Assembly: GCF_015552075.1 (NCBI RefSeq)
Contig: NZ_JADNDZ010000057.1
Location: forward strand, 1-40,466
Direction of reading: 5' to 3'
Origin: Collinsella aerofaciens
GTDB lineage: Bacteria > Actinomycetota > Coriobacteriia > Coriobacteriales > Coriobacteriaceae
Length of the DNA: 40,466 nucleotides
Shown here: positions 3,902-33,708 of the stretch, piece by piece
How the letters are laid out: every line of letters begins with the position of its first letter
Position numbering within the stretch: the stretch's first letter is position 1
Made by a program: the position numbers and the translations under genes
The notes under the pieces: generated by a model
What the model saw: only the letters and a program-made list of their open reading frames with translations
Databases searched by the model: none
What the model was told of the DNA's origin: nothing

Positions 3902-3959
3902 CCTCGCTATCCAGACGGCGCCATCTGCGCATCGAATCCGCATAACGTGGACCCAATGT
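3902..3959 (-). promoter_or_regulatory. putative expression platform of the lysine riboswitch
   Basis: The 3' strand of P1 and following bases (CGCTATCCGGA, 3969-3959) can pair with TCTGGATAGCG (3915-3905) as an 11-bp helix with one G-U pair. That segment abuts the GAGG Shine-Dalgarno (3905-3902). It also overlaps a competing hairpin CAGATG/CGTCTG around GCGC, so P1 formation and the downstream helix are mutually exclusive. No T-tract terminator is visible, which suggests translational control. The simple reading (free aptamer pairs next to the SD) does not by itself give the expected OFF-with-lysine logic, so the mechanism remains open. Confidence 0.4.
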
Positions 3960-3962
3960 CCG

Positions 3963-4120
3963 GATAGCGCTCCCGCATTGCTGCAGACAGTCCTGTGGGT
4001 GTTTCCCACAGGCCCACCAGGTTGTTCGTGCCCGTAAAACCCAGTTCGGCGGGTTTCGCCTCCCCACGGGGTCAAAGCCTGCCGGCTCGCCCGCGGCTCT
4101 TCGTGCCCGCGCCTCTATCA
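3963..4120 (-). promoter_or_regulatory. lysine riboswitch (L-box) aptamer
   Basis: Read on the minus strand, the leader of lysA matches the L-box aptamer in order. P1 is GATAG (from 4119) pairing with CTATC (to 3963). It is followed by the conserved AGAGGCGCG and AAGAGCC, then GGGGAGGCG and CGCCGAA, as in Bacillus lysC leaders. A P4-like hairpin has perfect 8-bp arms (CCTGTGGG with CCCACAGG). CTGTC introduces a short P5 (CTGCA/TGCGG) capped by a GCAA tetraloop, and GGAGCGCTATC closes P1. The size (about 158 nt) fits the class. Known L-boxes reduce expression of lysine synthesis or uptake genes when lysine binds, which suits the downstream lysA-dapA-dapB-dapH operon. Confidence 0.88.
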
Positions 4121-4147
4121 AGTGGTAAAGACCCTATCACGTTGCAC

Positions 4148-16039: not shown

Positions 16040-16105
16040 GGGACAGTCTTAAATGACCAGTTGTTTAAGACCGTCCCAAAAAAGTTCGTTGTTTGGGACG
16101 GTCTT
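16040..16105. repeat. overlapping GGGAC palindromes
   Basis: Four related 14-nt units occur in a row. Those at 16040-16053 and 16064-16077 pair with one mismatch; those at 16067-16080 and 16092-16105 pair perfectly. Because the middle units overlap, the two hairpins exclude each other. The units share the pattern GGGACnGTCTT. This looks like a REP-type extragenic repeat inserted just upstream of the ATPase gene, inside the operon. Confidence 0.7.
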
Positions 16106-16231: not shown

Positions 16232-16801
16232 TTAGTTGAGCCTAAGGGCCTTCTGGATGGGCAGGTAGAGGGCGCCGACCAGAATGGCGTTAAAGACGGC
16301 GGTCATGGCGACGACGGGCAACATGGCGGCGGCGAGCTCGCCTACCACGCCGAGCATGGCCATCTTGATGACCATGAAGATGACGCCGGAGACAAAGGTG
16401 GTCAGGAAGGTTGCGACAATGGCGATGGCGGGCTTGACCTGACCGTCCTTGCCGGTGGCGTTGACGATGCCGGCCATGAGCATGGCGGCGATGCCCTCGG
16501 CGGCAAAATCGACGAACGGCGAAGTGGTGGTGATCTGGATCACGGCAGCCGAGATGAGGCCAATGACGAGCGCCTGACCGATGTTGGGGCGAACAACCAG
16601 GATGGTGAGGCAGAAGGCCGAGATGATGAACTCGGGGCTGATCATGCCGCCCGAGATGCCCGAGATTGCCTTGCCGACGGTGAAGTTGAGGATGAAGCCG
16701 GCGGCGAGCAGGATGGCGAGCAGGACGAGGGCGCGGACATCGAGTTTGCCGCGGTCGGCGGTCTGGACGGTGCGGGGCTGGGCGGCGGTGTTCTGAGACA
16801 T
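16232..16801 (-). CDS. ECF transporter S component, predicted tryptophan-specific
   Basis: The 189-residue membrane protein has about five or six hydrophobic helices: VRALVLLAILLAAGFILNF, ISPEFIISAFCLTILV, GQALVIGLISAAVI, GIAAMLMAGIVN, AIVATFLTTFVSGVIFMVI and a final one. This is the size and shape of the substrate-capturing subunits that pair with EcfT and ATPases, and those two genes follow directly. Specificity is not readable from the protein, but the transcript begins with a Trp-Trp-Trp leader peptide and attenuator, so tryptophan (or a precursor) is the likely cargo, as for TrpP-type proteins. The ATG at 16801 follows AAAGGAT; a TTG further upstream (16831) is unlikely. Confidence 0.82.
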   Translation of the reverse strand: MSQNTAAQPRTVQTADRGKLDVRALVLLAILLAAGFILNFTVGKAISGISGGMISPEFIISAFCLTILVVRPNIGQALVIGLISAAVIQITTTSPFVDFAAEGIAAMLMAGIVNATGKDGQVKPAIAIVATFLTTFVSGVIFMVIKMAMLGVVGELAAAMLPVVAMTAVFNAILVGALYLPIQKALRLN

Positions 16802-16876
16802 GGTGAAAATCCTTTCGGAATGGGAGTGCAAGAGAAAAGCGGAGGCGCGTGATGCGAATGCGATCGGGCTCGAGAT

Positions 16877-16909
16877 AGAAAAAGGCCCCCGGTCGAAACC
16901 GGAGGCCTT
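16877..16909 (-). terminator. attenuator terminator of the Trp leader
   Basis: On the minus strand a stem of about 11 pairs (AAGGCC and CCGGT against ACCGG and GGCCTT) with a TTCG loop is followed by a run of T. It lies between the leader peptide stop and the S-component gene. The sequence TCGACCG in its 3' half can instead pair with CGGTCGA inside the leader frame (16952-16958), giving an antiterminator. Confidence 0.88.
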
Positions 16910-16945
16910 CCAATCACCTAGAGCTCAAAAACAGGCGTGAGGGAC

Positions 16946-17014
16946 TCACTGTCGACCGATCGTATTCGCATCACGCCACCACCAGTTGTTGAGAGAGTTC
17001 ATCGTGTTCTTCAT
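16946..17014 (-). CDS. tryptophan leader peptide (WWW)
   Basis: A 22-codon frame, MKNTMNSLNNWWWRDANTIG then RQ and TGA, follows a strong AAAGGAG Shine-Dalgarno. Three consecutive TGG codons (16976-16984) are the hallmark of a ribosome-mediated tryptophan attenuator: with little charged tRNA-Trp the ribosome stalls there and the following RNA refolds. GGCGTGA overlapping the last Trp codon can pair with TCACGCC just past the stop (16934-16940), a candidate 1:2 hairpin. The terminator and then the ECF S component follow. The peptide itself probably has no further function. Confidence 0.9.
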   Translation of the reverse strand: MKNTMNSLNNWWWRDANTIGRQ

Positions 17015-17072
17015 GTTGGTGGCTCCTTTCGTGATGCCGTGGCGCGGTCGCACCTAGTTGCTGTTTCGCTGC

Positions 17073-32324: not shown

Positions 32325-33348
32325 AGTCATAACATTCGGTATTCCCTCGTATAACGCCGCCAAGGACATGGACCATTGCATTACCTCCATCTTGGAGGGG
32401 AGCAATTACGCCACCGATATCGAGATTATCGTGGTGGACGACGGCTCCAAGGACGAGACGGCCGCCAAGGCCGACGAGTGGGAGGCCCGTTATCCTGGAA
32501 TCATCCGCGCGGTGCACCAGGAGAACGGCGGTCACGGTATTGCCGTCCTTTCGGGTCTGCGCGAGGCGCAGGGCACCTACTACAAGGTTGTTGATTCGGA
32601 CGACTGGCTTGACGGCGCTGCCCTTTCGACCATGCTGTCGATTCTGCGTGGCTTTGAGGAGCGCGACCAGCGCGTTGACCTGTTTATCTCGAACTACGTG
32701 TACGAGAAGGTTTACGAGGGCACGCATACCGCTATTGGCTACAAATTTGCCCTGCCGCGCAAAAAGATCTTTTCTTGGGATCAGATCGGTCATTTCCGCC
32801 TGGACCAGAACCTACTCATGCACAGCCTGTGCTATCGCACGGATGTGCTGCGCGAGTCCAACCTTCCCATGCCGCCGCACACGTTCTATGTGGACAACAT
32901 CTACGCCTACGTGCCGCTGCCGCGTTGCAAGACCATGTACTACGCCGACATCGACCTCTATCGCTACTTTATCGGTCGCGAAGGCCAGAGCGTCAACGAG
33001 GCAACGATGGTCAAGCGTCTGGACCAGCAGTTCCGTGTTACGCGTATCATGATGGAGTCGTACCACTTGTACAGCGATGTTGAGTCGTCGCGTCTGCGTT
33101 CGTACATGATGGGCTACTTCACCATGATGATGGCGATCTGCTCGGTTCTCACCAAGCTTTCCGAGGAAGATTGCGCCGACGAGCGCCTAAAGATGCTGTG
33201 GAATGATTTGAAGGCCTACGACGAGCGCATGTATCGTCGTGCCCGCTACGGCGTGGTCGGGTTCTTCACCAATCTGCGCGGACGGGCCGGAGACAAAACC
33301 ACACTCGGCCTATACCGTCTTGCCTCAAAGATCTTCAAATTCAACTAG
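32317..33348 (+). CDS. family 2 glycosyltransferase
   Basis: This 343-residue enzyme has the GT-A fold in its N-terminal half: ITFGIPSYNAAKDMDHCITSIL, DIEIIVVDDGSKDETA (nucleotide-sugar Asp), and YYKVVDSDDWLDG with the DxD metal motif (about 92-98). No transmembrane helix is evident; a basic C-terminal tail (KIFKFN) may sit at the membrane. Coupling to glf suggests it uses UDP-galactofuranose or extends a galactofuranose-containing glycan, an inference from neighbourhood. The ATG at 32317 overlaps glf by 8 nt. Confidence 0.88.
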   Translation: MHKVITFGIPSYNAAKDMDHCITSILEGSNYATDIEIIVVDDGSKDETAAKADEWEARYPGIIRAVHQENGGHGIAVLSGLREAQGTYYKVVDSDDWLDGAALSTMLSILRGFEERDQRVDLFISNYVYEKVYEGTHTAIGYKFALPRKKIFSWDQIGHFRLDQNLLMHSLCYRTDVLRESNLPMPPHTFYVDNIYAYVPLPRCKTMYYADIDLYRYFIGREGQSVNEATMVKRLDQQFRVTRIMMESYHLYSDVESSRLRSYMMGYFTMMMAICSVLTKLSEEDCADERLKMLWNDLKAYDERMYRRARYGVVGFFTNLRGRAGDKTTLGLYRLASKIFKFN

Positions 33349-33380
33349 CTGCTGAGTAATCGCTGTTGATAGGTTGACTG

Positions 33381-33490
33381 GGCCCCTTGGCCTTTAGTTT
33401 GCTACTGCGAACAGTCCTGCTCGCACGGAAAGCACATTAAGTGCTTTCCGGCTCGTGCGGAACTTGTATCAAACTAAAGGCCAAGGGGCC
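33381..33490. repeat. cruciform element B: conserved core with private 21-bp arms
   Basis: Outer arms 33381-33401 and 33470-33490 are perfectly complementary over 21 bp. The 68-nt core contains ACAGTCCTG (33411-33419), an inner hairpin GGAAAGCAC/GTGCTTTCC around ATTAA, and GGCTCGTGCGGAACT (33450-33464). The same core occurs inverted in element C 200 bp away, but with wholly different outer arms. There is no T-run after either arm. Confidence 0.85.
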
Positions 33491-33515
33491 TCTGCTATAA
33501 GAATCGATTGTCAGT

Positions 33516-33584
33516 TTATTTGAATTTGAAGATCTTCGACGCGCGGTACACAGGGGCCTGGGCTGAAAAGAATCTGGTTGGTAG
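33516..33584 (-). pseudogene. 3' remnant of a second glycosyltransferase gene
   Basis: On the minus strand this stretch reads LPTRFFSAQAPVYRASKIFKFK then TAA. The end VYRASKIFKFK closely matches the last residues (LYRLASKIFKFN) of the family 2 glycosyltransferase ending at 33348, at the DNA level too (AAGATCTTCAAATTCAA in both). It appears to be the last few codons of a paralogue in the opposite orientation, cut off by element C immediately upstream. No start or body remains. Confidence 0.45.
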
Positions 33585-33708
33585 GTTGCCCGGTGGGGCT
33601 TGGTTATGTTTGTCGCGAGTTCCGCACGAGCCGAAGAGCACTTAATGTGCTCTTCGTGCGAGCCAGGACTGTAGAGCAGCAAACATAACCAAGCCCCACC
33701 GGGCAACC
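33584..33708. repeat. cruciform element C: conserved core with private 29-bp arms
   Basis: Outer arms 33584-33612 and 33680-33708 are perfectly complementary over 29 bp. The core carries AGTTCCGCACGAGCC (33618-33632), an inner hairpin GAAGAGCAC/GTGCTCTTC around TTAAT, and CAGGACTGT (33664-33672). It is the core of element B in reverse orientation. Inner-stem differences between B and C are matched on both sides, so pairing is preserved. Confidence 0.85.

Follow-up and report, generated by a model that had tools for sequence, protein, structure and literature searches.

In textbook attenuation the decision to terminate is taken only once, before RNA polymerase leaves the leader, and the Trp leader found in a 40,466-nucleotide stretch of Collinsella aerofaciens DNA (the window) raises the question of what could be done by a further RNA strand which is complementary to the leader codons, but which is made only when the polymerase is already beyond the terminator and so can have no part in that decision. 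A preliminary description had reported a near-perfect 21-nt inverted repeat at this site, and the repeat is real and far beyond chance: 16847-16867 can be paired with 16956-16976 at 20 of 21 positions (95%), the two being 88 nt apart, and by a simple calculation about 2e-4 such pairs would be expected (arms no more than 280 nt apart, 40 kb). It had also been placed correctly, since the 5' arm opens with the G that closes the third Trp codon and the 3' arm begins 12 nt beyond the terminator T-run, so that the helix can form only in read-through transcripts, as had been proposed. Folded to its minimum free energy, the read-through leader contains the helix (-88 kcal/mol, z -5.2), and complementarity extends on both sides of the 21 nt originally named: UCGA (16874-16871) matches GGUCGA in the antiterminator strand, and GCGCCUCC (16848-16841) matches the Trp codons if one bulged G and one U.U mismatch are allowed. 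In relatives, that strand beside the stop codon (GGTCGA in the DNA) is often also a partner of the arm's 5' part, and the conserved 3' flank of the arm, GCGCCTCC, is also complementary to the Trp codons; this pairing, by GCGCCUCC or GCACC, again uses a bulged G, with U.G and U-A alternating opposite an invariant U of the Trp codons.

The surroundings of the repeat (features listed in Table 1) are those of a ribosome-mediated attenuator. An ORF with a Shine-Dalgarno (SD) sequence and tandem Trp codons, predicted to be translated, is kept across the family; the pattern WWW + N18 + GGTC was found in 63 of 65 family genomes (and only once in the query genome, G000, where this pattern gave no further leader of the type), and the three Trp codons are invariant across the aligned leaders with the sole exception of L028, which has two. 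Between this leader and the structural gene lies an intrinsic terminator, a hairpin with its T-run (16909-16879), and the proposed antiterminator, GGUC:G(A/G)CC formed with the 3' half of the terminator, is kept in all 27 distinct combinations (pairs on its flanks in 20, 17 and 14 of them), this core being so nearly invariant that it offers little covariation. Element S is predicted to pair with the Trp codons in most relatives and might thus form a hairpin over the leader ribosome binding site (RBS). Directly upstream of the leader SD, at 17031-17038 on the minus strand, there is a repeat of the arm core, GCAUCACG, which is another possible partner for the codons after WWW, and which is present in C. 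aerofaciens-type loci and absent from more distant ones.

Table 1. Features of the Trp leader and its downstream genes, with window positions and the basis for each assignment.
Feature	Position	Strand	Basis
Leader peptide ORF, MKNTMNSLNNWWWRDANTIGRQ then stop, 22 aa	16946..17014 (17014-16946)	minus	predicted from sequence
SD of leader, AAAGGAG	17029-17023	minus	sequence
Three tandem Trp codons (WWW, stall site)	16976..16984	minus	sequence
Element S, GCCACC, leader SD-ATG spacer	17018..17023	minus	predicted pairing with Trp codons (GGUGGC)
5' arm: post-WWW codons and antiterminator strand	16952..16976	minus	repeat search, covariation, duplex scans
Element A, GGUCGAC, adjoining stop codon; proposed antiterminator strand	16951..16957	minus	pairing counts
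Region 2, UCACGCC, can pair with GGCGUGA 3' of Trp codons (1:2 helix)	16934..16940	minus	sequence, predicted pairing
Intrinsic terminator hairpin	16884..16909	minus	terminator scan, fold
Terminator T-run	16879..16883	minus	sequence, terminator scan
Post-terminator anti-leader arm (3' arm) including UCGA extension	16847..16874	minus	repeat search, fold, duplex scans, covariation, cognate-versus-swapped pairing
Conserved 3' flank of arm, CGCCUCC, complementary to Trp codons	16841..16847	minus	conserved across arm-bearing relatives
SD of transporter gene, AAAGGA	16810..16815	minus	sequence
TrpP-type transporter gene (189 aa, devoid of Trp)	16232..16801	minus	Pfam TrpP, Trp count
ECF-type double ATPase gene, 583 aa, no Trp residues	14267..16018	minus	TIGR04520/TIGR04521, Trp count

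The first gene downstream encodes a transporter matching Pfam TrpP (E 8.7e-6, 26.1 bits, slightly below the cut-off of 27.2) and the second an ECF double ATPase matching both TIGR04520 and TIGR04521 above cut-off, making Trp the putative substrate. TrpA, the only trp gene product searched for, was not found in the genome (estimated to be 99.97% complete), and as both proteins of the operon are without Trp, uptake is probably important. The genome also encodes an RNase III. Between the two genes, at 16067-16105, there is an inverted repeat (AAGACCGTCCC...), and the words GACCGTCCC and GACTGTCC near it, which are similar to it, suggest a repeated element. Several relatives have another TrpP-like gene beside the first, with some 42-50% identity to the query (for example G032:C1:654371-654901 and G025:C11:73007-73543).

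Covariation between the two arms in homologous leaders, which the preliminary description had named as the way to check the repeat, was clearly positive. With the helix taken as 18 pairs in 35 distinct leader-arm combinations, 90.5% of cells were paired and compensatory change was seen at 9 of the 18 pairs, in 33 cells compared to 9.5 +/- 2.8 in shuffles (0/500), a count that is favoured by the picking of rows partly for their complementarity. Sliding the register by 1-3 gave far worse pairing in every case, and 30 rows gave the same picture as 35. Compensatory pairs include CGCGATGCG with CGCATCGCG (L017), CATGACGCG with CGCGTCATG (L034), CGTGGTG with CACCACG (L069 and L092) and CGTGGTTCTCGTC with GACGAGGGCCACG (L115). 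In a test free of the selection bias, in which arms were found solely by the flank motif GCGCC[TCA]C and not by complementarity, arms matched their own leaders at 8.18 of 9 positions compared to 7.70 of 9 for swapped leaders (0/20000 permutations). Beyond the core, the distal stretch of the arm likewise preferred its own leader (-12.3 versus -10.6 kcal/mol, 0/20000), and kinship among rows is at best partly removed by each of these covariation and swap controls. The pairing of the post-terminator arm with the Trp-sensing codons is thus, on comparative sequence evidence, real and conserved, and the helix is very probably a cis RNA helix that has been under selection.

Relatives of TrpP and their upstream DNA were gathered by genome searches, direct retrieval and one scan of genome contigs; viral contigs were also searched and yielded no TrpP relative. 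When the post-terminator stretch was tested against the 24 nt following WWW in 81, then 88, distinct leaders, duplex energies were better than those of dinucleotide shuffles in most Coriobacteriaceae leaders, many of them far beyond the shuffles, and not in Atopobiaceae leaders. In a tree of 86 TrpP loci the arm is present in 51 and absent from 35, these being the 31 rows of the Atopobiaceae branch (0/31 with an arm) and four Coriobacteriaceae (L028, L029, L031 and L032), and the distribution requires 4 changes on the tree compared to 27 when the labels are shuffled. Among the TrpP loci sampled the arm is therefore restricted to one clade, with gain on one side and loss on the other being indistinguishable as the root of the tree is uncertain, and its lack in four relatives and an entire branch means that it is not essential to the attenuator. 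Where present, its core lies 25-146 nt upstream of the transporter ATG and 0-87 nt past the T-run, and it can be short (10-nt cores in L020 and L043, 9-nt in L023 and L034). A class-wide pattern search gave, among the matches listed, many chance coding hits beside Atopobiaceae leaders.

Several individual loci stood out in this sample. One arm-bearing locus (L072) is labelled Slackia isoflavoniconvertens, which may reflect transfer or misassignment. Another (L035, in G012) has a leader that hardly differs from the C. aerofaciens type, yet its TrpP is only 57% identical and sits on a very long branch, for which recombination at the leader-gene boundary is a possible explanation. L084 and L091, with Atopobiaceae-type leaders, have a possible second short ORF with an SD between the terminator and the transporter, that of L084 being MKFPNPFTLRWQS followed by a stop codon.

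Our preferred explanation, to which as a whole we give a probability of roughly 0.45, takes the locus for a Trp attenuator of the ribosome-mediated kind to which an anti-leader arm has been added past the terminator. A ribosome stalled at WWW would leave GGUCGAC free to pair with the 3' half of the terminator, giving antitermination, and a ribosome reaching the stop codon would cover GGUCGAC and allow the terminator to form. In read-through RNA the arm would then pair with the Trp codons, the codons that follow them and often GGUCGAC, in a helix of some 20-28 bp (shorter in some relatives) enclosing the terminator. A ribosome parked on WWW, which would cover the Trp codons together with part of those that follow, should exclude this helix, and on its departure the helix would displace both the 1:2 and the antiterminator pairings. 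Folding models agree with the earlier suggestion that ribosome and helix compete: in 26 of the 29 relatives modelled P(arm:R1) was predicted to reach 0.8 or more with no ribosome present, and masking of the stall footprint brought it to 0.2 or less, the helix not being favoured in the other three (L023, L034 and L100), and the arm displaced the 1:2 helix in the models (mean predicted R1:mid pairing of 0.28 without the arm and 0.01 with it). We consider it probable that the leader ribosome gates the helix.

What the helix does once formed is more speculative. A direct effect on the transporter RBS is disfavoured, for reasons given below, which leaves an effect on the mRNA as such or on later rounds of leader translation. 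Our guess, put forward tentatively, is that less read-through mRNA would be made or kept when there is no stalled ribosome, for example by RNase III-type cleavage of the long helix or by faster decay. The arm would then, on a reading we hold just as cautiously, make this a two-stage attenuator, in which the Trp codons are checked again on the finished mRNA and the RNA closes unless a ribosome is parked there, so that read-through occurring outside starvation is cancelled post-transcriptionally. The short arms of some relatives would be poor RNase III substrates and so count against cleavage.

On the main competing account, which we think rather unlikely, the helix silences the leader: after read-through it would bury the Trp codons and stop further translation of the WWW leader, sparing Trp and keeping the mRNA free of stalled ribosomes. 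The arm flank is complementary to the Trp codons themselves, the leader RBS spacer likewise pairs with them, and with neither TrpP nor the ATPase containing Trp the operon itself needs none, all of which would suit such a role, but the helix begins some 30-40 nt past the leader start and so need not block initiation. When the arm was modelled as a leader-RBS switch the effect was weak and inconsistent, with predicted leader SD accessibility shifting little (mean 0.53 to 0.41), and it was rejected as such. A second check by cleavage or decay is our best guess in preference to silencing of the leader.

It is improbable that the helix, or the C-rich stretch beyond it, acts in transcription as a second site of termination, whether intrinsic or Rho-dependent. 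In many relatives C is abundant and G scarce past the arm, and in C. aerofaciens-type loci a T-rich stretch follows, but no T-run is conserved after the arm, a terminator scan found no second terminator downstream of it, and with Rho the logic would run backwards as the arm would be free in starvation. Quite improbable too is that the arm is the target in trans of the short terminated leader RNA. That RNA bears the same complementary strand, and there is a precedent (PMC7298713, citing Melior et al. 2019) in the attenuator RNA rnTrpL of Sinorhizobium meliloti, whose target in trans is trpDC mRNA, but each mRNA that has read through has a leader strand of its own, and this cis partner should prevail; nor does the arm overlap the RBS. 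The locus may be like rnTrpL/peTrpL in that the leader RNA of a trp attenuator has a role beyond termination; it differs in that rnTrpL/peTrpL acts in trans on other mRNAs and the partner here is in cis, on the same read-through mRNA.

A checkpoint on translation of the transporter, raised in the preliminary description, fared poorly as a direct effect. An arm freed by a stalled ribosome might uncover or cover the transporter RBS, and in five of the 29 arm-bearing relatives modelled the SD did lose 0.17-0.64 of its accessibility with the leader strand masked (L020, L030, L090, L100 and L103), but there was little change in 21 (mean over relatives 0.49 to 0.41) and the remainder showed small or opposite shifts, so that modelling with and without the ribosome footprint gave no consistent effect and direct occlusion is disfavoured. 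Sequestration of the structural gene SD, as in a translational attenuator, was no consistent feature of the models of these 29 relatives, though in the five just named it may occur. Furthermore the arm lies 25-146 nt away from the ATG, and the change, where present, would reduce expression in starvation, making this reading very improbable. Inverted repeats beside strong hairpins are prone to template switching during replication, but it is equally far-fetched that the repeat has no function and is kept complementary in this way around the terminator hairpin, as its complementarity lasts across many species while the arm shifts by tens of nt and its flanks diverge, the flank complementary to the Trp codons is conserved and G-U intermediates are frequent.

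Like classical trp attenuators (E. coli trpL and the trp leaders of Corynebacterium and Streptomyces), the locus has a short leader peptide with tandem Trp codons, an intrinsic terminator, proposed alternative pairings around the stop codon and a putatively Trp-related gene downstream. Unlike them, its proposed antiterminator uses the 3' half of the terminator and, in the comparison made with E. coli, its covarying post-terminator arm complements leader codons. The preliminary description was right that this arm is no part of the textbook attenuator: the same arm test on the E. coli trp, thr, leu, his, phe and ilv attenuators (trpL from strain SK1144, the other five from MG1655) gave nothing above shuffles. 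The excerpted account of actinobacterial attenuators in PMC1262725 describes leader, antiterminator and terminator and, within that excerpt, no post-terminator partner. No report of such an arm was found in mainly open-access literature, which is weak evidence of novelty. An Rfam search of the leader gave no family at threshold, the best sub-threshold matches being unrelated, and identity with an Rfam Trp leader or any other Rfam family was rejected for want of a gathering-score match at the leader. We therefore file the element as a variant of the classical Trp attenuator, the post-terminator arm being the difference. It is a conserved, covarying element that would act only after the decision has been made and is aimed at the very codons the ribosome reads; if the proposed mechanism is true, the leader goes on responding to amino acid supply in the finished transcript. 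The arm is present in some close relatives and missing from others, which provides a clear comparative and experimental handle.

Elsewhere in the window, a lysine riboswitch aptamer (RF00168, 76.5 bits, E 2.1e-18) at 3957-4125 on the minus strand is the only Rfam match at threshold. A cluster of large nested inverted repeats at 33322-33708 (29 nt at 100%, 25 nt at 96% and 56 nt at 86%) forms two adjacent cruciform-like units.
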